A stretch of DNA of 64,000 nucleotides from positions 24,287,168 through 24,351,167 of the forward strand of contig NC_092569.1 in the NCBI RefSeq assembly GCF_037975245.1, given 5' to 3'. Below the pieces are notes generated by a model. It worked only from the letters and a program-made list of their open reading frames with translations, did not search any database and was not told the origin of the DNA. Below are positions 2,698 to 28,599 of the stretch, piece after piece (within the stretch, counting starts at the first letter, position 1; the number at the start of each line of letters is the position of its first letter). Source of the DNA: Apostichopus japonicus. Lineage: Eukaryota > Echinodermata > Holothuroidea > Aspidochirotida > Stichopodidae. The translations under genes and the position numbers were made by a program.

Positions 2698-2705
2698 GAA
2701 TGATC
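2698..2705. repeat. Left target-site duplication of the KDZ-class element
   Basis: GAATGATC immediately left of the element, preceded by T. The same octamer (also preceded by T) lies at 28592-28599. The uninterrupted paralog near 51190 reads AAATGATC at this place. Confidence 0.8.
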
Positions 2706-2820
2706 CACCCAGCTCGTCCAATATTGTATCGCTATATTGCGTCCAAAAGGTACCGTCGACCGCGCAGTTTAGCGGACTAAAATACATTCTAGACCTTCTG
2801 AGAGACATGACGTCATTGCA
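2706..2820 (+). repeat. Left terminal/subterminal inverted repeat of the KDZ-class element
   Basis: Matches the reverse complement of 28480-28590 in ordered words: AGCTCGTCCAAT at 2711 against AGTTCGTCCATT; AAAAGGTA at 2745-2752 (39 bases from the end) against the same word 38 bases from the right end; ACCTTCTGAGA at 2793-2803 (87 bases from the end) against an identical 11-mer 87 bases from the right end. The first word recurs as a direct repeat at 2821. The sequence between words is diverged. Confidence 0.7.
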
Positions 2821-3829
2821 AGCTCGTCCAATCACAGAATGATCATGATGTTAGGCACGAAAACCAATAGCGTTGGTGCGTATGTGAAAACTTTCGGGCC
2901 GGTTTTGGTTGTCGTAGTACAGTAATTGTACCGTGAATGTTATTCTTTCCAGCTACGTATATTCCATAACAACTCCCTGATTAGGTATTGTTAAAAATTT
3001 CTGAAACACCAACCTACAGAAACACAGATAAAAGAAGTTTGCTTCAAAAGTAAGTGATTCAAACATGTTTTTGAGTAAAATTGTCACAGAATCTGCATTT
3101 ATTCTTTGGACAAAATACGTAGGCCTAACTTTTTTAATTGGTTCTCGCCAAGTTGTACAAGTTGTAGGCCTATATACTAGGCAATGTATAGTAGTAGTAC
3201 TATAGCCTGGCTTCATTTATGATTTAGTACTAGAAGTTCTGGCATAGGTAGGCCGAGCTAATTGAAAACACACATGTGACTAACTTATGGGACTGGGAAA
3301 CGTTATGACCCCTTGATTCAAACGGGCAACGTCTGTCAGTTGACCATATTATGCAATTTAATTATGAGGAGCATAATGTTCAAGAAAGACTACTTTCTGT
3401 TGAAAGTATAGGTTTCTGTTAGAAGTGCATGTGTGTTTATAATGGTTACATACCTTTATTGCCACTGCTACAATAGTACAAATGGTGAAACAATATATTG
3501 GACGGTATGGAAAGGTACCGAACCTGTTATTGACGAGTAAACAGGGCTATATGGGACCACAGTATATCTATTTTCTGTGAAAATCCTGCAGATTGAAAAA
3601 TCAACCTATACATATTCTAACATCGGATTCTTCTCACTAATGACAAACAACTTTTGCAGTATTAACAAGTGTTTACGGACTATATTTCTTAATTCTATAG
3701 TTCTGCTCAGATGCTCATTTTGGAAATAAAAATTAATTTTCTACTATGTGTGAAGAAACAGTGATTGAAGATTTACAGTGCTAAGTACTGTACTTGTATA
3801 ATTATCATCATGTCTTTTACAAATTTTAG
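2821..3829. other. Left non-coding arm of the KDZ-class element (5' region of the transposase gene)
   Basis: No convincing coding region. It presumably holds the transposase promoter and a 5' untranslated exon. The direct repeat AGCTCGTCCAAT lies at its start, with a further GAATGATC at 2837-2844. Small reading frames here show no recognisable domains. Confidence 0.4.
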
Positions 3830-3832
3830 GCA

Positions 3833-6800
3833 ATGGCATCAATGGGCCCACCCGTTGGTAAAAAAGCGAAACTGGGCAAGCCTCCGAAACGACGTGCTGT
3901 GTCAGTAAGTCTGACAAAGAAAGGACGTCTGACCTCAAAAACCGTTTGCTTTCGTCAGCGAAGAAGAAAACGAAAGGCAACTTTCAAAGAATTGTTCAGT
4001 AGAATTATTTGGGATGAAGATCTGCAGCTGCAACAACACCTGGATTCTGCAGATGGAAATTCTGATGAATTAACCCAGTCAGCATCCCTAGCCAGGCCTC
4101 AAACTACACAGTCTTCATCCAAGTCATACAAGGAGAAAGTGAAGGCAAGTGAAGAAGCTTGGACTAATATCCGGGGAGAGCTGATGAAGGCATATGTGGG
4201 GTCATTTATGCCACCAGATAACGGTCAGTGCTGTGTCACTGGCTGCATTGCTAAAGTATCGTACAAGTGTGACGACTGCCATCACCACGCATACTTCTGT
4301 GGGCCACATCTTGTTCAGACTCACCAGGGAAAATTGCATGTGCCGTGTTCATATGAGGTATAGTTATTTTATCTACAACCTGTGTAATTGGTTTTCATTT
4401 CAGATGGGAAATATAGTATGTTTAATTCATGGTTCAAACTTATGTTCTAGTCAGTTTTCAGTTTAGTCAAGTACTTGAACAGTAATTAATATGAAAGTTA
4501 AATTTCCAAACAAATTACACATTGCAGGTGGATAATAAATTTTTGTAAAACAGTTATTCACATCATTTTGCAAATTTGTTTGAAAAATTAGGTATAGGAA
4601 TTTGTCATTCACCTTCTGCTTTACAAGTTAATTGACATCTTATCTCCATTAAAGAAACATTTGTCATCAATTCAGACTAGCTGGACTACTTTTGTGCTCT
4701 TCACAACAAATGATCAATTGACATGCATGCATGAGTACAGCTACTCCTATATTGACTTTATTTGCCTGTATATCCACCAAATTGTCACTGTTCATAATGA
4801 TATGCAATGGATATGACTCACCAGTGCCATGTGAGCTTTATCAATCTTTATCAATTGCTTGTGTATATTTTAACTGTGGATCAATAGTGTTCATAAAGTT
4901 TATAAAAGCGAGAAAACAGGTGTTTTCCCTTGAGGTGCAGCTTCTGTGGATAACCACAGGATTTAGCCAGTACCTACTATTTTGCAACTTCTCATAGTTG
5001 ATCTAAAGTTTCTTTGTTTTCTACCTGTATTGAAGCTAGCTATACTTGTTCATGTTAACCACAGCCAGTTTATTTGTACTGCTTTATGGCAGTTTATCAG
5101 ACTTGATTGTGGTGTGTGCGCTCTAAAGAAACAATCCTTTCATTGATTTTTAGTTGATACTGTTGAATTTCACAGGACACTGTTGTTTATGAGAAACTTT
5201 AAGAAACATGTCTTGTTAAAACTAAAGAACAGGTTGACACTAAAGTGGCATTTTCAATTTACTATTCAAGTAATTAAGGTCGAAGGGGTTGTGCATGTTA
5301 TGCCTTGAATTCCAAGAAATAGATTAGAAACAGTTGATCAATATTTAATAACATTCAGATGAATCATATAAGTCTGTTGTAATTGTATATTATTTGATGT
5401 TTCTGTCTAACCCGGCCCACAAAGTTCATATTTCCAACAGCTATATTTTTCAGTTCTCTCAAACCAAGGAATCTATTTTTTTAACAGTCAGGGGCTTTCG
5501 CCCATGGCTTGCTACAGAGCCTTAAGCATGGAAACAGCTAAATACTAGAATGAATAGATAGTATAATATACAATATTCTTTCATTTTCTTCTTTTGGACA
5601 GGATGAAACATTGACAGAGGTCTTTGTAAAACAGGAACCATGGTATCCAAAGGGAGACCACGACTGTGAATCGGTCCAGACACACAATATTGTTGTTGTA
5701 GATTACAAAGGTAGGTACATATCATACATGTTATATTCACTGACAATATCCATGCAGTTAATTACATTATTAAGTTGTTACCAGTAGGCATGGGGTACTG
5801 TAAATGTAATCATCAATCACCTTGGCTCGGCTGAATTTTTATTTAATTGAAACAATTGTTTGTTTAAAGAAAAGACAGTTAATCATGGCTTTAGACAGTG
5901 GTTTTGCTTTTCAACAGGCCAAAAGCATGAAAATGTCTCCTTTGAAATATGACAAAACCCAATTTTTTAAAACAAATTCTCCAAAAAATATACAGTATTT
6001 CAAATGTTGCAGTAGTTTTATAGAGGTTTAGAAATTGTTCTACAATTTCAGTGCAACAGTCTAAGCATCAGTGAGTATTCAGAAAAGTTTTATAAAAATA
6101 CTAATAGAATGTCACAATATCAGTGCTGCTGTGTAAATATTAAGTTAACTTCACTGAAATGTAAACATTTAAATTAAGCAACACTCTGCATGGTTTCAGA
6201 CTGACGATGATATTCATTTTTACAGGCCGACAACATGATATTCCAGTGGCATTTTGCAACTGTGAGTCTGAAGCAACTCAACTTGTTCGTATGGGACTAT
6301 GGCCAGCATCTGCAGTCAAACCACAGGTTGCATTTTCTGTAGACCTGATGAGATGGTTGACAGTCATGTCACTGGAATGCCATGTTGCACTCAGAAACCT
6401 TTGTCAAGCACTGAGTTGGATGGTGCCTAAAACCCTACCAATCTTAGTGAGTTTTCATTTTTAGTGATTCATGTTATACTGTATAAGTTTTTACATACAA
6501 TTCTTTGGTTTGTGTCATGTAAATTATTGATTGATAGAATTTCACCACAAAAAGGTTGTAGCTGTATGTGATGCCTACATTATCAGATATATACATAAGC
6601 TTTCATGTATTACACATATCATTTCATCTACAATTTTTTTATTTTCAGGTCAAAAACCCTTATTCCCTGCTCTCGAAGAACTCCTTTGCAGAGTTCCGTT
6701 TTATGTGCAACCAATTGGACAGTTTTAAATTCCTTCAAAACCCACTGCTCCACAAACCCCTCAAACCAAGCTGTCTTGCTTGCCCGAAGGTAGGTACTGT

Positions 6801-9800
6801 ACTGCACTAGGGACCTTATTTGATGTGAATGTTGATCTTTATATGGAGATAATAATTAATTGTGGCATTAATTGTTTGTGGGGTTCCGTGTTCATCATGA
6901 GGACTGTCAGCTGCTTCTATCAATCTGAATCATTAGAATGCTGCTGTATAGAACCACCATGTCATCAGCAGTAATACATTCCTTATACAACTGAAGCAGA
7001 AATATGGGATTCAAATTGACAGTGCTACTTGAAACTGTCTTTACAATGTTCTGTAGTAATCACTGGCATGCAATAGCCTAAAACATTATACTGATATGAG
7101 CAATTGGGATTTCTCTCTTGCTCTCTTGAACAGACCGGTGGTAAAAGAATTTTAAGCTTGGATGCTATGTTTGGCTTGAAGCGTTGGAAGAAGTCTGGCT
7201 CGAGCGAGTTGCCCCCAAAGTATGTAGATTCTTTCTTTTTGGAGCAGAACGTAGTGGATGGCTTTGTCCAGAGCTACCATCATCAGGCCACTAGCAAACA
7301 GGTAACAATAAATTAATACATCTCTATATCCTTGCCGAAGGAATCTATCTGGTTGTGTGCGTGTGTGAGCATGTATGTTTCAATGTGGCATATACTGTAT
7401 ATGATGGTGAAGCCGTGTTTTTGTATCCATGTTTGTATGGGAAACCTCCACTTGTTAACATGATAAGCACCATTTTATGTTTTGGTTGTGTTAAATTCAT
7501 ACTTACTCAGTACATAGATGCACCATATTTATTGCTCAGTTGTTGATTGAAAACTGTACTTCTGGTATTGTGGCTAACTTAGTGATTTTTACTTGGGTTT
7601 CTATTAAAGTCTGAGTCTTGAATGTGTTAGTTATAACAACAGAAAATGATCCCAAATGCTCAAGGAAGCCAGATCTGGTTGTTTAAAGGTTGCTATTTCA
7701 AGACAATTTCCTGATTTTCTACGGCGGTGATTAATTTGTTTGAAGTTCCAGCTTTACCTTTACTATTTGAATCTGCCTATAGGGGCTTCACTCTGACCTC
7801 TGCGATGACTCACATAGCAGGGTGCACATTGGTAGACAAGCCAGGTGTTACCCTATAGACAACATCCTAAATGAGGTAGCTAAATTACTTATGTATGTCA
7901 GGCAAGGAATCACAAAAGACAAAACCTCATAGCTTTCTGGTTATCATGTCACTAAATCCTTTAAATAACTTTAAACATCGTGCCAACTGGTATCTGACAC
8001 ATATTGATGTTATATACACCTAGGGTATAATGATTAATGCTTCATTGCAATTGCAGAACTGTAGCACATTTCAAGCTGGTGATCTCATGCAGTCAAAGAA
8101 CAAATCAAAGAAAATAGATGAGACGGGAGTGTTCGGGAGCGTCTGCAGGCACGAGATGCCAATTTCATTCTTTAGTCTTCGCCAGGGGGAGCAGTAAGTA
8201 TATATGTAACCTAAAACATATCATCATCATCATTAATCAGTATTTATTAAGCGCTGTTATGGTGGAACACTGCAAGAAGTGCCTTGAAAGAGAAAGGTTT
8301 AGGCTGCTTCTTGAAGCTGTTTAGTGAGTGGCAATGTCTGAGTTCATGTGACTTTATAAACAAGGGCCAATTTTCTATAGAATGCAGAAATATCATATCC
8401 ATTGAATTTGAAGGGAGGCTCAATAAGGAGATTAGCATGTGGAAAGCTTTGAGAATGAGTTGGCTTGTGAGGGGAAATGAAATCCCACAAATATTAAGGT
8501 GTAATCCATGAAGGGCCTTCCATATAGTCAGAAGGGCCTTCCCTATAGTCAGAAGGGCCTTTCATATAGTTCCATACTTGAAGTATAGCCATTTGGATGC
8601 TAAATTCTATTTCACTCAAAAAACAGTATCCACTCCAAAGGCCTTATTGACAAAGTAGTTCTGGGGATGAGTGATGAGGTATACCCCTGGTGGAGTACCA
8701 AGCATGGGCATACTGTACAGAGTTTGATCACTCCTGTAGTTAGTTATATGAACACCAGAAAAGTAGTACCCAGGATTATCTTTATCAGTATGATTAAAGT
8801 GCTACTCACTCAACCTAATTTTCCCAATTACAATCCTGCATCATCGAAAATCATGAAGTTATGGTTATTTTTGTTTAAAGAAGACCCATTTTAATAAACA
8901 TGAAAAAAATATACCTAGAGTTAGTAATAAAATGAACTATTACACCCAGTTACATTTGATCCATCCATCATAGTAAAAAAAAAGACTTATTTGTGACTAT
9001 TACGTATCGTGTGTGTACAAGCCATCATCTTTATTAATTGCTTTATTTCAGACTTTCCAATGCAGTCTATATGGTACAGCATCTGTTGAAAGAATTGCCG
9101 AATACCCAGCATTACATTTTGTACGACATTGCCTGTATGTTAGAAGCTCACCTTAAGGTACGGTAATTGAAATACTTTATAATTATGTATAGCTTACATC
9201 AAATGAGACTACCAATCTCAATAGGTTAGGGTAAAATGGAAAATAGTGTCACATTTACAGGAAACTAAAGTCTAAACAGTGTGTGAAGAAAGAAACTGGT
9301 TGAGGGGTTGGACATTCACAATTGATAACCCTCCCTCATCCATGCTATTGGTAACCACATGGGTAAACAGTGATCATAATTGGTTTCTATTGGTTAGAAC
9401 ATTAACTTATTTTACCTGGCATCACATAGTATATCACAAAGCAATGGAGCTTTGTGATATCATAAGGAATATTCCCCATAGATGAAGCAATCATCCGCAG
9501 TGGCGTAGGAAGGTTCTTTTGAGTGGGGGGCTGAAGACTGATGGCCGGCCTGGGGGAGGGGTCTAAGGGATAGGGGGTGTCCCTCTCCCTTTGGAATTTT
9601 TTTGCATTTCCAGGTGGCCTTAGATGCAATTTGGCGCAATATAGCACACTTCAACACCCACTCCATTTTGTAAATAATTTTGTATTTTCACCTGGCCTTA
9701 GATGCAATTTGGTGCTCCAAATGAGATTTTTTTCTCATTTGGAAATGAAAGGGTTTTCTGACTTGCGAAGTGGGGGGGGGGGCGGAATGAAACTTCTGCC

Positions 9801-12800
9801 CCTCCATATTTTTCACTGGGGGCTGGCCCCCCAGCCCCCCGCCCCCGGTTCCTACGCCCTTGATCATCCGGACAATGACTTGCTAAAATAACAAGCTTAA
9901 TTTTAGTGGGTAATTGAAATTTACTTGCAACATTTACATACAAAGAAAGAAAACAAAACTTACTTTCTATCTCTCCCTATTTCTTTCCTTAAGCACATTC
10001 AGTATGTATACATTATTTCTATTACTTATGAATTTTGGGACTCATAAATAATTGCAAATAGAATAGTTTAGTGTGTACAAATTGCTATTGAATTTTGAAT
10101 TTGCTAAGTGATAGTGAATAAATTATTCCTTGACTTGGTCTGTTGTCTGTATTGTGATTTGATGAGAGCAGAGAAAGCCTCCACAAAAACATAGTTACAA
10201 GTATGTTTTTCTTTCAATAAGCCATCACATGCATAGACAGGAATTAAACATTTTCATTCCCCCAAAAAGATTCAATGCATAATGTTCTTTAAATTTTGTT
10301 TTCTCTGCAACAGAAATCAGGGCAACATGCACTGCTGTCCAAAATCAAACTAGCTGTTCCAGCTTTTCACATTTATGGGCACAAACCTTCATGCCAGGTA
10401 ACAGTCTTATTCTATCAATTTCAACTCAATATCTATAACTTAAACATGTATTCTGTAAGCTGGCAAGGAAAGCAATGTGCAATCATTGTGTACCAAAACA
10501 TCTTGTAACCAGTTATTGATGAAATGTACAGTTCTTGTACCTTTCATGTGTTATGTCCTTAGTTGGTATCAGCCATAGTGACATGTTTAGAATGACTCTT
10601 GGCCAGAATCAACAAGAGCATGTGCATCAGCAGTTAGTTTCACATATACTCTTTTAATCAAAAGAAGAAGTTCTAGCAAACTAGCTACCAACACATTCCC
10701 GTTGTGTCAAGCAATATTTGTTGAAGTGCTCTTTGTTGTTTATGTTTGCATATTCCTTAATGCTAATCCTAAGATGTAGTAGGATCAATTCTGCTCATTT
10801 TGTTGTATATTAGTTACAACATGTCCCTAATTTACAAGCTTGCAAGCACAGGACAGCATAAACCAACATAACATAACATAGTTATATATTTCCACAGATC
10901 ACATACAGTACAAGACGGGTTGATGGATTTGCCCTCAGTGATGGTGAGCAAGTAGAAAGGCTGTGGTCGTACATGCGGAATTTTGTGACGAGTACACGAG
11001 AGATGACTCCATCCCACAGGATTGATGCTCTATGTGATGCTCTGATACATTATGCCCACAAAACAACAAGACACCTTGGTAATGCAACTTAAAATGACGC
11101 AATGGTTTAAAATTTTAATAATTCCGGTCAGTTCATAGCAATATTAATTGTTGGAATCCTGTAGTATTCCTTATTGTGTATTTCATTGCTGTACAAAGTA
11201 AAATGCTAATTAGCTTGTACAGTATTTCTTATTTTCTTACATCGATTGTTAAGTGCAATACCAAATGGTTGCCATACTGTTTGATATCATATATACTTTT
11301 TGTGTGCCAGTTGGGTAATTAATCAGTAGTATATGAATTCTTCATTAATTACTTCAATTAGGTGAAATCCTCCTGCAAAGATATCATCGTGCAACCCAGG
11401 CTGTGAATACTGCAAAGGAAGAACTGGCAGAAGCCATGTCGTCTCATCAGCAAGGTTTGTGATCAGTAGTAGCTTTTAACACGCCAATAGATGGGGGGGG
11501 GGGGGGGGGAAAGGGGTAATGGTTGGCATGGGTCCTGCAGAGTAGAGGGGAGCAGTTCATTAACACAGTCACAGTAACTGCTTCCAATGTGCTATTTGCT
11601 GTAATATTAACTTATATCACATGACATGATGTGTTGGTAGATCCTATCTTGTATTATCTTGTGTTGAAAAGATCCATATGGTTCTCTGATTTGTCGGGTA
11701 AAGAATGAAATTGCCACCCCTTTGTTGTGGATGAATTTAACTGATGGATCAGAACTTACAATGCACAATGGAAATACCCACCACCCTAACCTCCCCTAAC
11801 CCCCTTCCCCCCAAAAAAATAATAATAATATATATATATATATATATGTCACATACCCAAATTAATTGTATGCATGTGTGTGAAAGGAAATAAGTTCATG
11901 TAATGGAAACTTTGGCTTACATATTCAATTGAAATTCAAAGTGTCTTTGGCATCAAAATTGCCCCAACGTATAGACAGAACTTTGCAACCTGCTGCAAAA
12001 GTTGTACAGCTGAGTATTTGTACATACTTTATTTCAAAGTGACGCTGGGAAACAAAAACAAAGGATAAAAAGTGTTGTGTTAAGTAGTGTTCAATGTAGT
12101 GACCACATCTGAGGAAACATTTAACAGTCTTTCAGCCAGAAATGTTCCTTCAAAGCAATGCCTTAATCATTCACTTATATTACACAACAGGTTCAGAACC
12201 AATCACTGAGACGATGATTCGAAGATGGAGAGTTGAGCTGACATCAACCCAAGTGTCTCCTTCTGTGTTGACTAGTAAGATTTAACTGTAATCCACTTTT
12301 TTAGGAAAGCTCATTCATGTTTCTTCTTATTATATAATAGCCAAAGATGGCCAGTGAATGTATGTTGTACTGATCAAATTCTCTTGTTGGGTAAGAATAT
12401 TTTTAGTTTTCATCAGCATTCTTGTAGAACTCAATTGATGCAACTTTCTCTTTTTGATGATGCTTCCTGCTTGTTTATCTCCACTTGCAGCATCTGGTGC
12501 AGACATGTCAACAAACGAGGCATATGCTATCCAGCTGTCAACATATTATGATATGTGGTGAGTTTATTGTACTCAACTTATGTGTATAACTTTGTATCAG
12601 CTATTATTACTTAATTCAACAATAGCAGTTTTATGAATGTCATATACGTACTCGTGTGCTGATCTTTCAGCATAAGTCGTGCAGGGTGCAAACAAACAAC
12701 AACAATATGTATGTCCTTCAACTACAATGCTCAAACAGACACATGCTTCTACATTTGGTTCATGCGAGCAATATTGCATTAAATTCATAATTGCAGATAT

Positions 12801-15311
12801 AACATGTATAGAGTGAAGGTATTTCCTTGCTACAAATCCGAATACCATATAGCACAAACTTGAAAAATTTGCATGTTTCTGTAGGACAGGTTTAAATAAT
12901 TGCCCACCATTTGGGTATGTAGCATTGGTATGTAGCACTGTTCTGGTGGCATGGTCACATAGCAACATGAAATAATGTTTTCTACATGTGTCTTAAAAAT
13001 AAGCAAATGGTAAACAAAAGAATAATGATGCACTGAAATTCTGTAGAAGGCAAGCAATTGATACAAAAATAAGTCAGACTGCTTTTAGAGGTTAAAGTAA
13101 TACAGGAACAAAAACAGTTCCTCCTAGATGGAGAGCCTAGACTCTAAACTGAATATTTGTTACTATTCATTTTTTAAGCAAGTAAAATAGTCATTATTTT
13201 GGCAGTCCCAATCGAGAGATGAAATGGGAAAGCTGTGTTCACAGTTTCAATAGGTGACATAATATGTATCAACAACACTTGGACTCCAAGTAAGTTAAAG
13301 TTTATTCCATCAGCATCAATGCTCATACCAAGTCAGTTTCTGTGCTTTTAACTTATCCAAGCAGAGGTTTTCATATGGAAATTGGAGAGCATAATGATTG
13401 ATGATTACTTTCAATTCTTGCAGTGATGAATTAACTGGACACACTGACACAGGGGATCACCTTCATAACCAACTCATTGCAAGAAAACTGAAAAGGTAAA
13501 TAGTGAATCATTATTTGTGAATTGCTGTTATTTGGGAGTGGGCGTGGGGATGTATTACCATGACTGTGATTGAATCTTGTTCTTTCTGTGGTGTTTGGAT
13601 TTGATGAAAAACAAACATTGTGTTTGAGCTGATAGACCAACCATTGCAGTATGAAGCCAATATATATTCAACCTACATTTTCAGTGATACTGGATATAGC
13701 AGTAACATTTCATTATACAAAATTATGCTTTCAATGTTTCTGGCTTCATTTTCAAACACAATCAAATCCATATTTTTTTTGTAATAGTAGTTTGCCAGCA
13801 CAGTATATGTGGCTTCTTTATTCTTTATCAAAATTTTTCATTGTAGCATTCATGAACAACTCCTTGGGGTGGAGAGTGGACCTCGATGGTCAAGGGATGG
13901 AGATGATCTAAAAAAATATCTTCAGATTAATGAAGACAGAGCAAGACTGGCTATCTTGCAAGAACTGCATTCACTGACAGTAGACAGGTGGTTTCTTCTT
14001 CACTTGAAGAGGAGATATGCTGGTGAGCATGATTTTCTTTTTTTGTTTGTTGTGGTGGTTACACCTGACTTATTGCTAAATAATTACCTTCAGTTACAAC
14101 TTTTAAATGTTCCTTACAATCATGTCCATCATCATTTCCTCTGGCACCAAACTTAAATTTTCTAAACTTGATCCAAAATGATCATTGCATCTTTGGGGTT
14201 TGAGTGCATTATAAAAACATAAATACACACAATGCTGTAGGTGCAACCTCTTGAGTAGGAGGTATGTGGTTTCCCTCTGAAGTTTTATGACTTAGATTGT
14301 AAATATGGCCATGCTGGACCACTTCTAGATGAAAGATGGGTTGGGTCACCCCACCCCACCTCCCCTCATTAAGTACATGAGGTAAAAAAAAAATAGCACT
14401 GTATCACACCAAACAGATATGAATGGTGCAAAAGGTTTTGCACATCATTGTACATGATTAAACTGTTTGGAATAATGTTAGTAAGAGTGCAATCAGTCAG
14501 TAATCAGTCAGTAAATATATATGAAGTCTATGATTTGTTCTGTTGTAGTTGAACGTCTTCTGTATTACATCTCTTTGCCACTGTATTGTCATATCCAAGT
14601 AACCACACTTTTAATTCCATGGGTATTATCAACTCTCTATGATGTTAACTCTCTTATTTCCCTTTTTTCTTTGTTGCTACCCCAGATGGACAAAAGATTG
14701 CTAAACGCCTCTGTTTAGAAATAAACAAAGTGTCAACTGCCATCAAGAAGTTGTTGCATAAATTTTGCAACAGGACTTTCAAGACATCCTCTGACCGTTA
14801 TCCCAATATATTAACTTTGGATGATATATTGGATGTTAAATCACCAATATGGGATTGCCTATGTCGAGATGTCACAAAAGAGAATGTGCCAAGGTATGGG
14901 AAGTGCCTCCTTGTAGATGCTCTACTGAAAGTTGACCACAGCTGCCAGGAAGTGTCTATGCTGGAGGCTGAGATGAAGCAAGTTACCTTCAGTATTGCCA
15001 ATGCTATTCGTGATATGAGATTCATGATTTTCTTTGGCACAGAGCATCCAGGAGAGTCAATTTTTCTAACTTACAAGCTGAGAGAAATGCAGCATTTCGC
15101 ATATTATATTTATACTTTATTTAGTCAAGTAGTGGAACTGGACCATGTAGAGGAACCATCTATTATCCGTGTCATTGATCTTCAAGACAGACAAATTGTT
15201 CATGAAGACATTGACCTGGAGGTGGTTCCCACAGAAGATGATGAAGGAGCATACTTGGATCAATTGATTGTTGATGCAGAGAATGCTTCCGAACACTCAG
15301 ACTCGGATTAA
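3833..15311 (+). CDS. KDZ-superfamily (Zisupton-like) transposase, 15 coding exons
   Basis: Exons: 3833-4357, 5602-5710, 6226-6446, 6649-6789, 7134-7301, 8057-8193, 9052-9157, 10314-10397, 10898-11078, 11362-11454, 12191-12274, 12491-12557, 13424-13495, 13847-14022, 14686-15311. All junctions are GT-AG and the 2790-nt frame is open (929 aa). Residues 10-48 are basic, nuclear-signal-like. Residues 133-172 form a Cys/His zinc cluster, followed by the CxC motif FCNC (221-224), the DNA-binding region usual before KDZ catalytic domains. KDZ core: SLDAMFGLKR (D342), VCRHEMP (about 417), LYDIACMLEAHL (D459), AVPAFHIYGHKPSCQ (483-497) and the block around DGEQVERLWSYMR (E514/E517). D342, D459 and the E pair fit an RNase-H-fold DDE triad. 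The tail is acidic. Exon 1 follows an AG acceptor at 3828-3829, so a 5' untranslated exon probably lies upstream. A domesticated host gene is the alternative, but the flanking target duplication and end repeats favour an active-type transposase. Confidence 0.9.
8511..8573 (+). repeat. 21-bp tandem repeat, three units, in transposase intron 6
   Basis: Three successive units beginning AAGGGCCTT at 8511, 8532 and 8553, each 21 bp, with one to three substitutions between them. No evident function. Confidence 0.75.
9498..9862. mobile_element. hAT-type MITE in transposase intron 7
   Basis: A 365-bp element with terminal inverted repeats CAGTGGCGTAGGAA at the left and, reading inward, CAAGGGCGTAGGAA at the right. 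It is flanked by the exact 8-bp duplication ATCATCCG (9490-9497 and 9863-9870). Eight-bp duplications and CA-G-GCG termini are typical of hAT non-autonomous elements. The interior is G-rich then C-rich near the ends and has no coding capacity. It lies in the intron between transposase exons 7 and 8. Confidence 0.88.
11826..11848. repeat. Short TA microsatellite in transposase intron 10
   Basis: An AT dinucleotide run following an ATA-rich stretch. A homopolymer G run of about 19 bases lies nearby at 11492-11510. Simple-sequence DNA only. Confidence 0.7.
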
Positions 15312-15609: not shown

Positions 15610-15613
15610 TTAA

Positions 15614-16847: not shown

Positions 16848-17278
16848 TTTGCTTAAAGTAACATATACCATATATGATATTGTTATTCATGATATAGTTA
16901 TGCTTGATTATTGATATTAATTGTCATCCGAAGTTGATTGTTTCTATTCTTATTTTTTAATTTTCTTTCAAGAAATTTACCATTATTCCAAATTTCCCAC
17001 CTTTGAATAAATAGTTTACAAATAACAACCTAGCTGGTAATTTGTCACTTTCTTTCTGATGTCTTTGTGTCAATTTTTGAAGTTACAAAAACAAAGGGAA
17101 TAAACAGACAAAATACAACTCAAATTTGCATGGTGTTAAAATATACTTAAATATCACATTACTACCTTGTCCATTTTATAAATTTTAAACAGCAACCACC
17201 GATTCCTCCACTATATTCCAGAGCATCGAACACCCTCCAACCCTTCACGCATTGGCCATCTCATTCATGCAACCTGCA

Positions 17279-17950: not shown

Positions 17951-17958
17951 AACCTGCA

Positions 17959-19962
17959 TTCCCCTTAAATTAAAATCTCGTTCCAACCTGTGCCTGTCAC
18001 CTTCAATCTTTGTGAATTACTAAATAATGCATAAGTAAAATTTCCCCAATCAAACACAGATGCCTAAAACATTTGTTTGCAGTTTATCCAGAGATATCAA
18101 CTAAATGATGGTCACTCTGGAAGGCTGTTCTATCATAGTTTTTGTTATACACCAATTTCGTGTAATTATTAGACTGGGAAAGGCTATCCGTCTATATGAT
18201 TTTTATTTGCGCCAAAAATAGGTGTTTTTGTCTTGAAAAGTTAAAAAGTCACTCTTTTGGGTACCCCCATCCTTTCCACTGCGGGTATGTGACAGGGCTG
18301 AATTTTCATATGTGGGAGGAAAGAGTCGTAGCTAAGTGTAGACAACTCATACTGTAGCATTAATACTCGTGGAGGGGTTATAGTCTATACGTTTTGGATG
18401 CCCCCCCCCCAAAAAAAGGTGTTTTTCACGTGTAGTAGCTATAATAACCCTAAACAAGCACGCCTGCGCCGACGGCAACATTTGGAAAAGTTATAATCGA
18501 TAGATAGTCCCTTCTGTGTTCTTTCATTACCGGAAGTCCCGTTCCCATCAGGTTCCCGCTGTCGATATAGCGTGACGTCACATCTGACCCACTTTTGACA
18601 TATTTGTACCCATATCTCAGCAACAAAAAATCCGATCGTTTTCAAAATAGCACCAATGGTTTCAGCATGTCCGAAACTATCAAGAACAATATTTGCATGT
18701 AGTTTGCGCGATTTCGAATTTATTACGTCATTAGGTGGGGGCGCTATTTTTGACGGGAAAATAAAGTTCACCCGATTAGCTTTAAATACCAGATTTAGTT
18801 CAAACTAATATTTAGAGATTATATAAACGTCGTTTGATCTGCTTCCGGTCTTTGATTGTTTTTTAAAAATATTTTGTAATGTTTTCTTATGAATATTTAT
18901 TTAGACCGCCATTTTGTCTAATATTTATAAAAAATGTTGAAACTCACTGAATCAATATAAGATGTCTCGAAATATTTTTGCTGCTTTTTAGAATGCAATC
19001 GATGACCGAGTTTTGTAATAATCGATGATATTGCGTTTGGTAACGTCACTTCCGGTCAGAAGAAAATATCCACAAAAACGGAACTTATTTTGTACAACCT
19101 AAAGAGATGAGACTTCAGTGTAAGTTACAGGTTAATAGCTCATTCCTCCGGTCTCAGAAACGCACCCCTAGGTAAATCTTTAAAGCGCCCTCATTCCGGA
19201 AGTAAACAACTTGAAACAAGTTTAAGATAATCACGTGATAGTACGCATCGAGTTACATCACGACACCAATTTGTGTCCCGAAAAACCATATCGTGTACAC
19301 ACAGGAGTCGAATATGCTAACCCCAAGCTAATCCTAGCTAACCCTAGGGGTTGGGGTTAAGTTTGAGTGGAAGCCATCTTGGATTGGTATGACCTTAGGT
19401 AAAAAAAAAACTTTTTGACCATTTTCGGTGGTCCGAATTATCATATCCAATAAAAAAAATGAATTTTTGATGAATTAAATTTTTGACCTCTGATTGACCT
19501 TTGACCCGATGACCTCATTGTCGATTTTTTTCACGTGAGTGTTCCTTATGACGTCACACGTCATCGCTGCTAGTTTCGTGAAAATAGGTCACTCTCACGA
19601 TTTTTGACCTTTTTTGGAAGGAACGACATTTTAGACCTTTGACCCCCTATAACACATGAACCGGAAGTGATATATACTTGCCCTTTTCATATGTAAGTGC
19701 CCTATCAACCCTTAACATCCATAAGACATTTGGAGATCAAAGGTCAAAGATTACGATTTTCGACCGTAACCTAGGGGTAGTCATTTTCCAAAATAAAGTA
19801 GTCAAGTATTATCCAAAGTTACTTGCATTTTTTGGCTGCGATAAATAGTCATGTGACCAAAACTGACCGGAAGTGTTGGTGGGTGTACCGTGACATCAGT
19901 TCAGCCCTTTGACCAAATATCGCACCCATGGAACCCCCACTGTTGGAGATAGACAAAAAAAA
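17959..19962. other. Non-coding stretch rich in CCGGAAGT and CRE-like motifs
   Basis: No convincing gene. Exact CCGGAAGT/ACTTCCGG octamers occur at about 18530, 19048, 19196, 19661 and 19867, with one more at 20036. TGACGTCA-like sites lie at about 18571 and 19549. TGACCTTTGACC-type phrases are present from 19490 to 19760. It may be a decayed interspersed repeat or a regulatory cluster. Confidence 0.4.
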
Positions 19963-20262
19963 TGGACACTCGGGACCTGGAAATGGACATTCGGACTTAG
20001 GCACCTATTACATAACTTACAATATTATTTTGGTCACTTCCGGTCAACTTTTATATGATTTTTTTCAATTTGATACATTCCACGCGCCTAGCCCCCCCCC
20101 CCTTTATAATTTTTTCAAATTTGGGGGTAATTTTTTTTACCCCGTCCCGTGGGGGTCCCGTGAAGATCCCGTGGGGTCCGGTGGGGTTGGGACTGACGAA
20201 AAAAAAATAGTTGATGTTAGGACTTCAGGTCCCGACTGTCCACTTTTAGGTCCCGAGTGTGC
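19963..20262. mobile_element. Fold-back (inverted-repeat) element of about 300 bp
   Basis: The left arm contains CACTCGGGACCTGGAAATGG (from 19968). The right arm read on the minus strand gives CACTCGGGACCTAAAAGTGG followed by ACAGTCGGGACC. The arms are about 45 bp, imperfect, and enclose poly-T and GGGTCCCGTG-rich sequence. I could not define a clear target duplication, so the class is unknown. Confidence 0.55.
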
Positions 20263-21630
20263 GCAATATCTTAATTAGGGTTTGGCCCTTTGAGGAATGC
20301 GGGTCGTAACGTAATTCTTATTATTGTGCATTACCCCTTATACTGGGAAGGTATTTCTCGACGGCTAAGATACGATCAATTGAACATAACCATGAGGTAC
20401 CCTCGCCTTATATCATTGGGGACGGTAACACTAAGGGAACCCGCTGTTTTATTTCTGCGTTCATCTGACGCACCGAAACATTTAATGGATGAACCAGGAT
20501 TTTACTGATAGTTTTAAATTTAACGTCAATATGAGGGCGCCATTGGGGTCAGAAATTTAGAGTTTCTGTAGAGAAACTCGACTGTAATTCAGAGCCGTAA
20601 TTGTATACATGGACTTAATTAATGGTGTATCGAATGTCGCGCGCGACGAACAGGTAAACCAAATAACGAATCTGCGATCTTAATATCATTGAAGGGGTTG
20701 TTAGCGGCTAAGTAAAATAGGTCCCTGCTCTGAACTGGCGGACGAGAAATTGAAGAAAAGTTTCATCGCATTCATAAGTCGTGTGGATTCGAATATCCTG
20801 TTATCATGATATTGGCGTTGGGAACTGGGAGTCTTTCCATTAATGCAGTCTCATTCTTAGCATCATTACTATACGAGCAGATAATCATCATTACTATACT
20901 TTTGTAGAGCGCTTGATCAGCATGATCTGGTTACACCCCAAAATTCATTTTTAATGGTACACATGTGTTCCTTTCTATGATAAAAAGTATGGTCTTCTGG
21001 TTACCAAGGAAAAGTTGCCACAAGACCCACAAGACCACCTGAATGAATGTAGAGATTTCCAACATTGCTCTTCACCCTCGATCCTCACTCTTAGTTTTAA
21101 ACATGATTTTAGCATCTTCTTTGATAATTTCTGGTATGCCTCCATAACCCTTTTTTTGTATATTCTATGTAGGAAATTTCTAGCAATTCTGTTATATATC
21201 TGGATAATAAGGACACAGAGGTTAATTTATAGTTAATATGTGTATTTCCTATCCACATACTCTCATATCAATATAACTGTATATGATCATGCAAAGAAAG
21301 TTTGGTGCAAAGTATGATATAGCACTGATGAAGACAATAATGAATACGATTCTGTCATTTGATGATAACCTCATATAAAAGAGCCCAAGGGCACTATGGT
21401 TCCTTGCTCGTAAGGAATATTTACAAAGGAGCAAGCAGTACTGTCCTAAAATTGTTATGTGGTCCGATGTACACACACAATATTATTGCCAAAAATATCA
21501 CAAATCATCCGTTGGTCCTTTTGAGAACCTGTTGAGGACCAGGTGACTGATATGAGCAAGAGTTGGCCTATTTTTTACAGGAACACCCGAACCGAATTGT
21601 ACAGTTGCTTATAATAGCATTTTCGACTTG

Positions 21631-21933
21631 AATATATTGCGCATTTATATGCATCTGTGTTATAACATGATAACACGTGTTATGCTAGAGGCACCTTTTA
21701 TTGCGGCCTGTGTTAAAAAAATAAAAAATATATAAAATAATAAAAAAAATAAAAAATCAAGAAATATTTTATATTAGTCTATATAAAAATAAAAAAATAA
21801 AAAAAATAAAAATATATAATACCACTACGATTTACTGTATTGTATCTTTAACATATCTAGCTCTCGCATGCTCCCAAAACATAACACGTGTTAGTGTGTT
21901 ATAACACCCTGGCATATAAATGCATAATATGCT
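21631..21933. mobile_element. Possible MITE with about 52-bp inverted ends
   Basis: The left arm 21633-21684 (GCATTTATATGCATC then GTGTTATAACATGATAACACG) matches the reverse complement of 21880-21933. Both arms contain TAACACGTGTTA. The interior is A-rich (AAAATAAA runs). No target duplication was identified. Confidence 0.5.
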
Positions 21934-22139
21934 ACACGTTAAGAACAAATATAAGCTCACACCTTTTCGGCTTGGGTGCACAGAATCATCCTAACTGTAC
22001 TTATTAAGAATTCTAACAAAACCAAAAGAAACCTTGATGTCTAATAACTTCGCACACAAAGGTTGCAGATGAGTCAACTTATGGACAATTTAGATCGGAA
22101 TATGGCCAAGAACATTCCATTAATCAACTAGAAAGAAAC

Positions 22140-22420
22140 TAATACAGGTCACTGGAGGTCAACCTGAGGTCAAAGGTCACCCAAATGCAGGTCAACGTTT
22201 GGATTACAATAGCATAACTCCCAACCCTTGAGGGACATTTTGTTCTCAAATTATTGCAAAAATACTAGTTTGTGACCCCTAATTGACCTTTGATGACCTT
22301 GGATCACATAACCTTTATGTTTGGAAATGATCCCTTACCCTATTTACAACTAGTCCCAAAATATCAACTATGTATGGTTTTTGGCCTCTAACTGACCTTT
22401 GGTGACGTTCACAGGCACCA
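22140..22420. repeat. Interspersed-repeat relic with AGGTCA half-sites
   Basis: Several TGACCTTTGA-type phrases, including AGGTCAAAGGTCA at about 22173, which equals a consensus DR1 nuclear-receptor site. Related phrases occur at 19480-19760, so this is more likely repeat-borne than a unique enhancer. Confidence 0.35.
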
Positions 22421-23563
22421 AAAACAATAGGGCAAACCTTCTCACTATGGCGGATCTATATACCAAGTTTGAGTTAAGTCCAACTATCCCTTGTTGAGTT
22501 ACAGTGTACCCAAGCAAGTGTCACAGGTGCACACAGACAGACACACACATGCCAACCTGACTACAAAGGTTCCTTTGCTAAAAAATTACTTGGATAAAAT
22601 GTGTAAACCAACTAAAGTAATCACCACTGAATGTATCTTCACACATTAACTATCAAACCTCATTTAAGTGCAACAAAATGTTGAAAATGTGAACAATTTA
22701 CCTATGACATGGTCAGATGTCTCGTTGAATATAGAATACTCAAAATCATTCTTAAATAGCACATTAACTAGGTACAGCCAGAAATATAAATATATGGACG
22801 GAGTTCCAAACACGAAGAAAAAAATGAAAGAGATATGAATACGAAATGACTTTCTGGTGCTGTAGTATGCCTTATAAGTAATGAGATGACACTAGACAAG
22901 TGTCAGTATATTTGATATTGAACATGTATTCACCAACAAATCTAAAGGTTCACTTGCACTGAAAGCTTGTATCATCCAGAAAAGTGAATATACTATTTCC
23001 ACACAATTGGACACCTTCCATCCAACTTAAAATATCTCATGGGTACAACCATGTTTAGACTGTTATCAGTCAATTTTATCGATTTGCCTCCCATGGTTTA
23101 AGGGGATTTCCTCTAATCCATACAAGCATTTTATATGTTATCTGTGCTGAAAGTTCTGTTGAATGGTTTCAAACATCAAAATCAAGTTTGATCCCACCGT
23201 ACTCCTATAATTCCATTTCTGTAACTTTACTACAACTGTATATAGTACTATTGAAGGTAATGAAAGCAAAAACTTAAATGCTATGGTACCAATAGCCTTT
23301 CCTCTGGCTTATCATACTTTGTAAATATAGATATATATATATATAAAATAAATAATAATACAAATAATAATACCGTCTCTGAGGTTTCCTGTTTAGTAAA
23401 AAAACAAAATTCCTTCAGGCCAGTTAAAAAAAGAGGCGATTAAATCTCATATAACTTTGATTTTGGAGCTGTATCTACTCATATTTATGGCAAGAAGGCA
23501 ATGAGGCAACTTGAAGGCAATGAGGCAAGAAGAATAAAAACGATAAAATTACGATTAATAAAG

Positions 23564-26264
23564 TTACGATTTAACTATACATTTAATGCTCTCTCGGGCA
23601 TTCCAGATCCTACGTAGCTGGGCTGTCCCATAGCATTGTGGCTTCTTAAACACAATTCCTTCTGGAAGCCCATCCATTTGTAAATTAAAAAGTGTTTTGT
23701 ATGGCAGTTTCTTGCCAGGCTGCCCAACTGCTTCAGCTGCAAATGGAAGAGAGGTCACGATTAATATAACTTATGGAGTACAGTAGGGTTGAGCGATATT
23801 TTGTCATAAGAACTCATATCACAATATGATAAAAAGTGCTGGATATCCATTTATCACTACATCTAAAGGAAAAAAAATTGTCAGAAATAAATATTTTGCT
23901 CAATAAGACATAGGATGTTGCTACCATTTGTATTTGTTTGATTTGCATTCTTTACTGATATAGATAAACCATTCTAATATTTCATGTTCAACTGACAGAC
24001 TGGTAGTGAGTGTTTGCAAGTCAGCAGAACATGTGGTCAAGTTTAGTGTTAGTGCCACTGAATGTGTAGACAAAGGTGGTATATAATGGAGTATCTAATA
24101 ATTTAAGTATTATTTCAATGTGTGATTGAATTTGGAATTTTGATAAACTGAAGTGTCCCGTGCCCATAAATGAACTGTATATGGTCATACTTTTGCATAC
24201 AGTGTGGCCAATGCAGAAGTTTGGTGTCTCAGAGCTCCCCTGCCTTTCAATGGCACAATTGTGTCACCACTTACTCTGGCAAATAGTTTCAGTAAGTTCA
24301 ACTAACCATATTTGCTATTAAAGAGCTGCCGTATGTCATGGACAGTAATTGAAGTCTTTGCTGTTACCCGAGCATCCAATCCTGCCAAAACAATGATAGA
24401 AAGTAGGTGTCATTCATTGCTACAATAGGCGACACAAATAGAGAAAAGGTGGGGTGTTGCATGCATAAAAAATATGGTCAATTGGTTTGCTGCATCAACC
24501 ATACTTATGTTTTTATTATGCCTATAGTAATAGACAGAACATTTCATATTTTCTGTTACATCAGCTGTGTTAACCTATGAAGATTTCTTAAATCTGTATT
24601 CCTGAACCCTGTAATCCAAAGATTATTGAACGCAGATGTTTAATGAGTCGATTCGTGTATTTTGCTGTGATCTGTTAATTGATTTGTTCTTCCTGGGCAA
24701 TTGAAGGTACTAAGCTCACTGTTTATTGAATATACAGAAGTCAGACATTTACCTTTGCAGAACCCTTCGACGACAGCCTCATATTCATTTTCAATGAATA
24801 TGTTGCCACTCTGTGTGCCTCCATATCTAGGGTCTCCACCTTGTGGAACCACAACAAAATAACCTGAAGTAGGTTGCAAGGACCGCATCTCATCCATCTG
24901 TAAAAAGACATACCAAACATCATCATGAAACATGGTGGTACAGCATATCCTGGCATGGTTTGAAAAGAAAATGTATCGAACTAAGAAAGGTGTGTTGAGG
25001 CTTTTAAAAGGCTTTCATAAATTGGTACTTATAGATTTGACAGTGTGAATGTCATTTTAACATACACACACAATACGGACTTCCAATTTCATTTACATGT
25101 TCAAAAGCCTTAAAGAGATGACAAGATCAACAGTGCATTTTGGTAAACGGCTTTGACAGCTCAACTAACACCTTTATAATATTCATAACTTTGAGGTTCT
25201 TATAGCAAGTGATAAATAACAACTATAATATCTGTCTTGACTTCCTTTCTCTCCCTTTTTACTCTATCAACTATTCGTATTGAACACTGTGCGCTCATCC
25301 ATACCTCTGTCCATTATATACAATGTGCCACCATAGCTGCTTAATAAGTATTCTGCTTGTTAAGAAACTTTGCTACAGATCCTTCAGTGTTAGGACACCA
25401 TGTCTGAGCATTGTCTATAACTGAACAGAGAACAAATTGATCTTCCAGCAAGATTAACCAATTAATAAATGAGGTTTTCACTGAAAATAAGTCAACTGTC
25501 AGATACCTCCACAAGAGTGTCATGAAGGACTTTGTGGTTTTCATACTGCTGGGTAATTGTAACATTGCCTTGTGTGAGGAATTGTGTGTACATGTTGCAA
25601 GTTTGAAGTAATGTTGTGCTTCTATCCAACTTATTTTGGGGTGAATATCAACTGTCCCTGGCTAAATGAAATATATGTACATGCTTCAGACTTGTTGGTG
25701 TGATCTTTAAATTATTCAAACTATGCATTGTTATCTTCACAGACTTACAACTTTTAGCATCTTCTTCACACACTTGTTCCATTTCCCTTGTCTCTGTTTG
25801 TGTGACAAAGTGTTTTTCTGGGCTGCTCTCCTCCTAAATTCTCTTCTGCGTTCTGTTGTCAGTGCAGCCCAGCGACTGCCATACAAAACAAATTTCTGCT
25901 TGCTGGTTAGCAGCCTGACACCTTGATATGAGGAGATAAAAAGTTGAGAGCAATAATAACAACAATCATAGAAATACACAAACCCATCGCCTTTGTCACA
26001 TACCACCTCTATCAAGATTTCATTGAAATGTCACTTTAGTTATATAGAGTTCATTGTGCAATATTGACCATCATTGCCATCACACCGAATTGCACTAAGT
26101 GAAATCAAATTAACAGCAACAAACGATGGCTCAGAAGGAACATTCTTTATATTGGAATGCACTGCAGATGCACAATTGAAGTAGTAGACATGTACAATAC
26201 CTTCTTCAGAATTGAGTTCCTTGCAGAACAAGTTGTAACCGGTTGTTCTACTTGTTTGATTCAT
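23564..26264 (-). CDS. HMG-box-like plus GTF2I-like repeat protein, six coding exons
   Basis: Coding exons in reading order: 26264-26201, 25921-25749, 25548-25507, 24897-24753, 24381-24307, 23736-23564. They give a 223-aa open frame with GT-AG junctions. Residues 7-57 resemble an HMG box: GYNLFCKE, then SRWAAL and RRREFRRRA, split by a phase-1 intron. Residues 57-79 are basic. Residues 94-141 (MDEMRSLQPTSGY onward) are unrecognised. Residues 143-223 form one complete GTF2I-like repeat: HDIRQLFNSKYAEAVG, KKLPYKTLF, DGLPEGIVFKKPQCYG, then a C-terminal IKCIVKS ending at the stop codon. GTF2I repeats are DNA-binding modules of TFII-I proteins. An AG acceptor at about 26275 implies an upstream untranslated exon. 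The gene converges on the transposase gene inside the same element, suggesting an accessory (passenger) DNA-binding protein. The 14-codon third exon is the least certain. A trapped host gene is the alternative. Confidence 0.78.
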
Positions 26265-26387
26265 CTTGTTTTCCTGTGTGTTAATGCAAAAAAAAAAAAA
26301 AATTATTGACTTACACAGTAAAAGTATATTGAAAATATTACTAAACACGAAACCATCAAGTTGGCTGACAGATTTGAAAACTCAGTC

Positions 26388-26739
<352 letters not shown>

Positions 26740-26780
<41 letters not shown>

Positions 26781-26797
26781 TATATATATATATATAG
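26740..26797. repeat. TA microsatellite
   Basis: Nearly pure TA dinucleotides adjoining the 31-bp inverted repeat. Confidence 0.9.
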
Positions 26798-28479
26798 GGA
26801 TGTGCCCAGGATTTCCTGAGTGCCGAGTATACCGGGGAAGGGGTCTAAGAGAAGCGGTGACATTTTTACATACGTGGTGCCCTCCCGCCACAACTGCCAG
26901 CCAGACATTGACAAGGGCAAGTTGTATACAGAGCTAGTGTAGTGTGATACTGCATGCTGCAGATTAAAGCCGCACCTACTTCATATCCGCACCTGTGTCT
27001 ATGTGAATTTGACAAATGGGGGGAAACGAGGATACATGTGGCCCAATTAATTTTGAATATAATGTTAGGAATGTCTGGATTTTAGATGATAATAGTGCTG
27101 GGCGGGAGTCACAATTTTTTTGACAGTGCTGGGTGGTAAGTTTTAGTGCTAGGCCGCCTAGTGACGCTCAGTGTGGGCACATCCCTGTATCACAAAGTTC
27201 AATTGTTCACTTGCTGCTGCAAGAGTGCTCAATACATAAGAGTAGAGCAAATATAAAATAAGAAAATATACCTATACGTTAATTTACAGCATGTTGTCAA
27301 TTAACGTATAGGTATAGCCTTCAAACTGTCAAATTTATCAACAAAATGAATTCATTCCACAAATTATGACCTAGTATTTTTCTGGAATGCTTTGTCTCGC
27401 TATGAATGTATAGTTTTTTCCTAATTTGATGAAACTGTGAAGTTCTTTAATTTTTGGTCAGTCATTAACAAAGTCACTGCTGTACATTGAATTATATTGT
27501 GCAGTGTAGTATTGTACAAAATAATGTGAACAGAGGTTTTCCTAGAATTCACGGTTCTGCAGTAATTCTGCAAAAAGAGGAACTTATTATGAATTATTTT
27601 GGTCCAAATATTATTGAGAAATTCTAGGGACGCTCAAATTGTTCTTAGACTATTCGTTGCCACTTTAAAATCAGAAAATGTGGGTGTGTCGCATAATGTC
27701 CTACGCCATATAACATGCAATAAAGCAGGTAATTATTTATTACCAATGCACCCCATGAGGCTACACTATAGCCTATGCCAATAGCTTACAAGTAGTTTAA
27801 ATTGGTGACAGCAACCTAACCATTGTCTACACAGTTGGAAATAGGCTTAGTTTCAGCCACATGCAGGCCCTAGCTATGAGCCAGAAAATCAGTCAATTGG
27901 CAACTTACTGGATCTGGTGTTTACAAAATTCTGTATCCTACATTCATTTAATTTAGCGGAATTTTTATCAGTTGAGGCAAAATCAATCATTTAGCCACCC
28001 TAACACTCGGTAACACTAACACTAGGAAGCATACACTAAGTAAAGTGATGGGCCTAGGCTATATAGGCCCTAGTAGTAGTACTACTACTAGTGCTTAAAT
28101 ATTACCAAGAAGGCTATAGTGTACAGTAGAACCAATTTAGGCCTAGGCCTAGGGTCAATACAAAATGTTGCATTCTTTTATCAACAATTTTCAGTAGCCT
28201 GGCTTTGCATGTATGCCATGAAATTGTACGAATTTGGACCTAACTTAAGACAGTAAGTGTATAACTCAAACATACCCCTGGATTCTTCGGTGAAACTAAT
28301 TCGTTGAAATTAATTTGTTGTTTTTTTGCCAAATATTTCTCCTTTTTTATTCAATTATTCGGCTGAATCTCATTTAAATGTTCCCGCTGTTTACAATGCA
28401 TCGGCTATACCGTCGGCTGCATCGACTATGGTCGTTTCACAGTAGTTACAGCTTGTACGCATGACCACAGGTACGTCAT
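26798..28479. other. Upstream region of the HMG/GTF2I gene, non-coding
   Basis: No supported coding region. It likely includes the minus-strand promoter and a 5' untranslated exon. A perfect 16-bp hairpin lies at 27269-27314. GGCCTAGGCCTA- and TAGTAG-type short repeats occur at about 28060-28150. Confidence 0.35.
27269..27314. repeat. Perfect 16-bp hairpin
   Basis: TACCTATACGTTAATT at 27269-27284 is exactly complementary to 27299-27314, with a 14-nt loop. It lies upstream of the HMG/GTF2I gene. Confidence 0.8.
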
Positions 28480-28590
28480 ATATTTGGTCCCTTCTCAGAA
28501 GGTAAAACTATATTTTCAATGCGGTTCGTAGCGATGTTCCAGCATACCTTTTCTGTCGCACTACTGCGTTATTGTAATGGACGAACTTAG
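28480..28590 (-). repeat. Right terminal/subterminal inverted repeat of the KDZ-class element
   Basis: Inverted partner of 2706-2820. On the minus strand it shows AGTTCGTCCATT (28587-28576), AAAAGGTA (28552-28545) and ACCTTCTGAGA (28503-28493), in the same order and at nearly the same distances from the element end as on the left. A further shared ATGACGT follows on both sides. Confidence 0.7.
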
Positions 28591-28591
28591 T

Positions 28592-28599
28592 GAATGATC
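28592..28599. repeat. Right target-site duplication of the KDZ-class element
   Basis: GAATGATC directly followed by the sequence GTCGATTA, which in the paralog at 51198 follows the single-copy site. Together with 2698-2705 it brackets the insertion. Confidence 0.8.

Follow-up and report, generated by a model that had tools for sequence, protein, structure and literature searches.

A 64,000-bp stretch of the genome of the sea cucumber Apostichopus japonicus (C9:24287168-24351167, hereafter the window, to whose positions all plain coordinates refer) was analysed with searches of the 671.6-Mb, 35-contig assembly of this species. A recently inserted DNA transposon of the KDZ superfamily occupies 2706..28592 on the + strand, having 25,887 bp and the ends CACCCAG...CTTAGTG, as established by its junctions, by four copies and by empty sites. 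It is flanked on both sides by a 7-bp target-site duplication (TSD), AATGATC, at 2699..2705 and 28593..28599, placed by direct reading of the junctions and by the register of the ends. The element carries two genes: a KDZ transposase on the + strand (3833..15308) and, on the opposite strand, a small gene whose protein combines an HMG-like box with a single GTF2I (TFII-I) repeat (23564..26264), referred to as gene 2. The initial annotation of this DNA had proposed a Zisupton-class KDZ element of about 25.9 kb. The KDZ and CxC domains, the flush ends, the TSD and the inverted ends bear out the superfamily and the size, whereas the narrow-sense Zisupton label is unsupported, because the duplication is 7 bp and not 8.

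Ends, empty sites and copies of the element

The left junction reads CTTATGAATGATC followed by CACCCAGCTCGTCC, and the right junction GGACGAACTTAGTG followed by AATGATCGTCGATT. A G is common to both junctions; at the right it is the final base of the element, and at the left the same position is an A in both empty paralogues. Comparing the left end (CACCCAGCTCGTCCA...) with the reverse complement of the right end (CACTAAGTTCGTCCA...), the inverted repeats match at 15 of 22 positions when the G is counted inside the element and at 1 of 22 when it is counted outside, a match of 15/22 being reached by random pairs from the element in 5 of 20,000 trials. Since only the 7-bp register aligns the inverted ends, the extra G is assigned to the element. 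The 8-bp duplication first described, whose eighth base is the element's own right end, was thus rejected on this register and on the other copies. The duplication also has 7 bp in the copy on contig C17, with AAAGATC on both flanks, and the copies on C22 and C11 are consistent after allowing small losses: CTTATTG (7 bp) is duplicated in C22 provided that 7 bp were lost from the left end, and C11 has lost right-end bases, keeping the apparent last two bases of CAAGACA.

Regarding the terminal regions, the left one (2706..2836, + strand) contains CACCCAGCTCGTCCAATATTG, with AAAAGGTA at +40, ACCTTCTGAGA at +88 and a second AGCTCGTCCAAT at +116, and the right one is a degenerate terminal inverted repeat (TIR; 28492..28592, - strand) with TCGTCCA at 9, AAAAGGTA at 41 and ACCTTCTGAGA at 90, counted from the end. 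The subterminal blocks are therefore nearly in register between the ends (40/41 and 88/90).

As a genome query, the left flank gave three matches, corresponding to the insertion site itself, a paralogue near 51180 in the window and a third one upstream of the insertion, at a distance of 8.8 kb. An empty site in the window paralogue had already been described, and comparison of the junctions with 51169-51204 supports it, as the paralogue is uninterrupted (TATAAATGATCGTCGATT) and holds the unoccupied target AATGATC at 51191..51197. The upstream paralogue is likewise empty, the insert being missing from 2 of the 2 other paralogues found.

Besides the one in the window, there are three long copies, on contigs C17 (25.8 kb), C11 (24.3 kb) and C22, which refutes the possibility that no other copy shares these ends. 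The closest is that of C17, differing by 0.64% substitutions over 25,756 covered positions, followed by C11 (1.2%; 24,273 positions covered) and C22 (2.0% over 21,448 positions of the stretch compared); in C22, a further left part of 4.1 kb matches window 2712-6850 at ~97% (BLAST, gaps included). The first 285 bp of the element also found 7 further pieces at 77-95%, of which C4 holds two, C1 one and C16 four, the last representing two places; the right ends of these relatives were not found in the DNA examined. Because long copies are few and little diverged, the element family is, judging by its sequences, a low-copy and recently moving one.

The insert could alternatively stem from a misjoin in the assembly or from segmental duplication, since several paralogous blocks exist in the surrounding region and the case rests on assembly sequence. 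However, such events do not account for flush ends with a target duplication and inverted repeats, nor for the unlike flanks that surround the copies on four contigs. In addition, a HiFi assembly of A. japonicus has been published whose size matches (671.60 Mb in 34 scaffolds, with 23 chromosomes; PMC10344927). The chance that no transposition took place is practically negligible.

Two observations concern DNA related to the ends. On C4, two related left ends (C4:20431756, L055, and C4:20456167, L054) lie 24.4 kb apart. They are similar throughout the part inspected, which takes in 80 bp of flank, and this suggests that a segment with an 84% relative of the element was duplicated. When the right end was the query, 30 of the 40 scored matches fell on C7, at ~1.9-12.5 Mb; in the seven right-end-like places examined (L061-L067, five of them on C7), similarity to the window covers at least ~28243 to 28545 and does not include the final 45 bp. 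Beyond the window-like part these places align with each other, seemingly forming a separate repeat family concentrated on C7.

A palindrome, ATGAATATTCAT, stands at 2677..2688, 10 bp from the TSD, and is also present in the two empty paralogues (at 51169-51180 in that of the window). It is exact at 3 of the 4 insertion sites, C22 having CTGAATATGAAG (8/12), with 10 bp between motif and 7-bp TSD, and is located to the left of the element in the window and to the right at C17, C11 and C22. About 286 kb examined contain 6 exact copies of the motif, at the three C9 paralogues, the C17 site, the C11 site and one unrelated place; matches of the C22 grade (at least 8/12) occupy 1.2% of positions. 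A preference for this target is weakened by several facts, as only four sites are available, one of them at 8/12, the C11 spacing fits if an 8-bp deletion is inferred, and presence before insertion is documented at the C9 site alone. The palindrome might then be a coincidence or a common host element, an explanation that is improbable considering that a single exact occurrence lies outside these sites and their paralogues, yet three of the four sites carry it exactly and at a fixed spacing.

The transposase and its companion gene

The transposase gene contains the domains PF18758, PF18803 and PF18802, and its exons were mapped from annotated A. japonicus proteins. There are 15 exon pieces with approximate edges (3836-4357, 5632-5715, 6219-6449, 6649-6792, 7134-7301, 8054-8194, 9053-9157, 10335-10403, 10898-11080, 11361-11456, 12190-12276, 12490-12555, 13422-13490, 13845-14021 and 14685-15308), with 3833 or 3842 as start codon candidates, in line with the intron-rich transposase expected at the outset. 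In the window, 15 of the 15 pieces are free of stops according to the mapping of the annotated proteins P0002 and P0003, the last one being one codon shorter than in P0002. The KDZ domain PF18758 was detected in the window frame with E 1.5e-18, and P0002, which matches the C17 copy, has the full domain (E 1.8e-47). Upstream of it, as in the KDZ superfamily, sits the CxC2/CxC1 cysteine cluster (6204..6419, + strand; CxC2 E 2.7e-10 and CxC1 E 1.5e-8 in the window). The motifs DETG, YDIAC and DGEQVERLW are present as candidates for the catalytic acid residues. As for the other copies, C17 has a stop in the first mapped transposase exon, and C22 retains the N-terminal exons, the first one being divided between two frames.

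Substitutions in the transposase comprise 38 nonsynonymous changes, including one stop, and 33 synonymous ones, compared with an expected ratio of ~3:1 (p = 9e-5), counts that were pooled over three comparisons, all with the window copy, so that changes on the window branch are counted repeatedly and the comparisons are not independent. This ratio suggests that the transposase was under selection during the spread of the family. A tree was built from 25 of the 33 proteins found. In it, the KDZ proteins of A. japonicus cluster with one further protein, those of fish with amphioxus, and two octocoral proteins stand apart; fungi are separate, and the order of the sea cucumber, fish/amphioxus and octocoral groups is not settled. 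Pfam was run on 8 of these 33 proteins and on P0001, the annotated protein of gene 2.

A second gene was already part of the initial annotation, though not identified there, and it can now be described as five exons on the - strand (26264-26201, 25921-25749, 24897-24753, 24381-24307 and 23736-23564, the last with the stop), forming a complete frame of 209 aa with GT-AG borders at 4 of 4 introns. The stitched protein is 99% identical to P0001 over the full length, with 2 differences. The GTF2I repeat comprises residues 144-209 in the Pfam search of the whole P0001 (E 2.3e-14) and is mostly encoded by the exon at 23564..23736 (- strand), being also visible in the unspliced window frame (E 1.2e-8). 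It matches the solved repeats of GTF2IRD1 and GTF2I in the Protein Data Bank (PDB) with a best E of 8e-10 and ~30/66 identical residues by manual count. The HMG-like box lies in the N-terminal part, where a profile of four sequences (the gene 2 protein and three relatives) matches the UBF HMG box with E 2.2e-6; in one relative, P0035, HMG_box_2 is found with E 4.6e-4, slightly short of the curated cut-off. PDB matches to an envelope glycoprotein (E ~0.02) were weak and taken as chance, and the AlphaFold model of P0001 alone has a mean pLDDT of 40.7. Gene 2 exons are matched in all four copies, C11 having no match to exons 1-2.

Further domains were looked for with Pfam across the element. Six single long open reading frames, the + frames of 15.0-24.9 kb and the - frames of 2.7-12.0 kb gave no domain match, the - frames of 15.3-23.9 kb held the GTF2I repeat and nothing else, and those of 23.9-26.4 kb, which end short of the repeat exon, gave sub-threshold matches only. 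The all-frame scans left out 12.0-15.3 and 26.4-28.6 kb on the - strand and 2.7-3.5 and 12.6-15.0 kb on the + strand, where a small further gene is possible.

Recurrent pairing of KDZ transposases and GTF2I repeats

The association of both genes is seen elsewhere in the genome. Joining matches less than 12 kb apart, 41 KDZ matches were merged to 26 loci, and 18 of these have one of the 30 GTF2I matches within a pairing limit of 35 kb, 18 of the GTF2I matches in turn having a KDZ locus, where 0.08 is expected. In all 18 pairs, as read manually from the match positions, the GTF2I exon follows the transposase on its 3' side at a distance of 10-29 kb, with the GTF2I strand being opposite to that of the transposase in 7 pairs and the same in 11. 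The opposite-strand pairs are the four of the window family together with C17:16.29, C17:23.87 and C16:10.97.

Where loci could be placed, this orientation follows the phylogeny of the transposase. The exon tree, which placed 19 of the 21 loci given, separates a window type (DGEQVERLW; branch support 0.995) from the rest (DGEGME or DGECME), and in it 5 opposite-strand loci are all of window type and 10 same-strand loci are all in the other group. The motif DGEQVERLW is also present in P0009 and P0006, matching C17:23.87 and C16:10.97, respectively. The P0008 family (C7:2.01 Mb and C8:30.19 Mb) possesses the motif of the window clade, yet neither locus has a GTF2I match within 35 kb.

Six small GTF2I exons were taken from other loci, L073 being left out of the alignment due to an internal stop and L068 being trimmed to the part behind a stop close to its edge; the five aligned are 31-45% identical to P0001. 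As the sole query of a protein search, gene 2 retrieved nothing but itself, and a profile search with gene 2 and the five exons added 16 proteins, for 13 of which a GTF2I domain is precomputed; 13 of the 16 belong to A. japonicus, with no other named species within the length limits of the search. Pfam was run on 10 of the 16. P0035 and P0036, which contain the GTF2I exons of C17:16.3 and C16:10.97, have the N-terminal, middle and GTF2I parts in common. In P0042, P0043, P0046 and P0047, the GTF2I repeat is joined to a chromodomain, P0042 holding the exon of the C14 family, and no chromodomain was found in P0044 and P0045 (C19 type). Chromodomain partners belong to part of the second KDZ clade. 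None of the 30 GTF2I matches are close enough for a vertebrate-type gene with several repeats, though diverged repeats could escape. P0046 carries the name 'chromatin modulator polycomb protein', yet it unites GTF2I and a chromodomain like the partners of KDZ loci, and is possibly a misnamed transposon gene.

Another reading of the pairing is that regions rich in transposable elements accumulate unrelated KDZ genes and GTF2I repeats, as several loci are clustered (C12 31-34 Mb, C17) and 12 of the 30 GTF2I matches are unpaired. This is very unlikely, in view of the position of gene 2 within a bounded element in the window family, the restricted distance between partners and their constant order.

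Proposed mechanism, alternatives and known systems

The element is very probably a two-gene, recently active cut-and-paste KDZ transposon; we infer every biochemical step, as well as the part of the gene 2 protein as an accessory factor for transposition. Recognition of the short inverted ends would be due to the KDZ transposase, which would then cut the element out and insert it at a target opened with a 7-bp stagger. HMG boxes and TFII-I repeats are DNA-contacting modules elsewhere, and the gene 2 protein, with its HMG-like box and one TFII-I repeat, may help to assemble the ends of such a long element or may steer integration beside ATGAATATTCAT. The chromodomain partner in part of the sister KDZ clade would fit a role in chromatin target choice.

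Some results weigh against this interpretation. A part of the loci is unpaired (8 of 26 KDZ loci and 12 of 30 GTF2I matches at 35 kb), and these may be fragments, diverged or independent. The p-value of the pairing, 8e-39, overstates it, because loci of one family are not independent. Since element ends are mapped in the window family alone, the location of gene 2 inside the element is established for one family and, for the others, follows from proximity and order. Regarding the HMG box, P0001 alone, which is near-identical to the window protein, has no Pfam HMG match and reaches E 0.079 only in the single-sequence PDB match. In addition, the binding site of TFII-I is RGATTR, which does not occur in the terminal 600 bp at either end of the element, so binding of the repeat to the ends is unsupported.

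The GTF2I gene may instead be a passenger, meaning a host gene captured in an ancestor with no role in transposition. Changes in gene 2 between copies are too few to measure selection (7 nonsynonymous and 4 synonymous), exons 1-2 have no match in C11, and additional genes have been described in giant transposons (PMC12477816). Against it, the repeat has stayed recognisable in exons as divergent as those of the five other loci, the 3' position is constant, and both the strand and the partner domain of GTF2I track the transposase clade where placed. A passenger is consequently possible, although on the unlikely side, and gene 2 as an accessory factor is preferred. More speculatively, the TFII-I repeat in A. 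japonicus might be chiefly a transposon domain, an old DNA-binding partner of KDZ transposases joined to an HMG-like box or a chromodomain for site choice, and vertebrate GTF2I, GTF2IRD1 and GTF2IRD2 might come from a domesticated KDZ accessory gene, a proposal that is rather doubtful.

Other features of the region were noticed around the element. Related tandem repeats of 157-160 bp occur at three places of the paralogous region (37873-38620, 47993-48504 and 62985-63401), and at 32293-33828 a 21-bp unit, nearly palindromic and built around ACTTAAGT, is repeated in two arrays. Just beyond the window (C9:24351168-24361167, L048), about 1224-6454 of that stretch has been duplicated recently in tandem (period ~3.2 kb), being ~99.5% identical to the last 1.9 kb of the window.

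No earlier report of the pairing between KDZ and GTF2I was found in a literature search, although the founding Zisupton/KDZ papers could hold one. The search for 'transcription factor II-I repeat' with sea cucumber gave no match, no title on the origin of the TFII-I repeat was among the matches listed, and likewise none on holothurian KDZ/Zisupton, one mention of 'Zisupton' concerning another superfamily. The word 'Zisupton' is absent from the available text of the A. japonicus genome paper (PMC10344927), and the transposon-related literature on GTF2I-like repeats, as far as its accessible text goes, deals with hAT elements mistaken for GTF2IRD2.

With the KDZ superfamily, the element shares the KDZ domain (PF18758), the CxC cluster, many introns, a long target duplication and a large size, and it differs by the TFII-I repeat gene, by a 7-bp duplication together with inverted ends and by the motif beside its insertions. 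Its size is no record, as KDZ elements of 30.3 kb in Ectocarpus and 31.7 kb in Chlamydomonas are described, giant algal families often having additional genes (PMC12477816); those of Cryptococcus have ~9-11 kb and 4-8 bp duplications (PMC12810828), and nematode Zisupton genes have inverted repeats and no duplications (PMC9297572). Fungal Kyakuja elements present 7-bp duplications and CA..TG ends, both shared by the present element, but are described without TIRs, unlike the degenerate TIR found here, and the families studied carry TET/JBP dioxygenases (PMC12730594). Fish Zisupton is also an animal KDZ element with a multi-exon transposase, differing in its 8-bp duplication, which a fungal Dileera shares (PMC12730594); the fish, amphioxus, octocoral and sea cucumber transposases form the animal side of the tree.

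Dada is compared for its targeting behaviour only, having 6-7 bp duplications, specific targets and target motifs at a fixed distance from the cut, whereas its transposase is another one (MuDR, hAT, P, Kolobok-like) and its targets are small RNA genes (PMC3706591). In Dada, subterminal repeats recur in the targets at the same distance (PMC3706591), and the CAATATTG at position 14 of the left end of the present element is a resemblance only. With GTF2I and GTF2IRD1 of the TFII-I family, gene 2 shares the repeat itself, while it differs in having one repeat instead of several, a small protein, an HMG-like box or chromodomain as partner and a transposon as carrier.

Thus, the element is a giant animal KDZ transposon whose ends are known exactly and whose recent insertion can be compared with an empty site. 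Two questions become accessible to testing through it, the site choice of KDZ elements and the origin of the vertebrate TFII-I repeats. Compared with the systems above, it is a new KDZ member, and the recurrent TFII-I partner is what is new for the superfamily.

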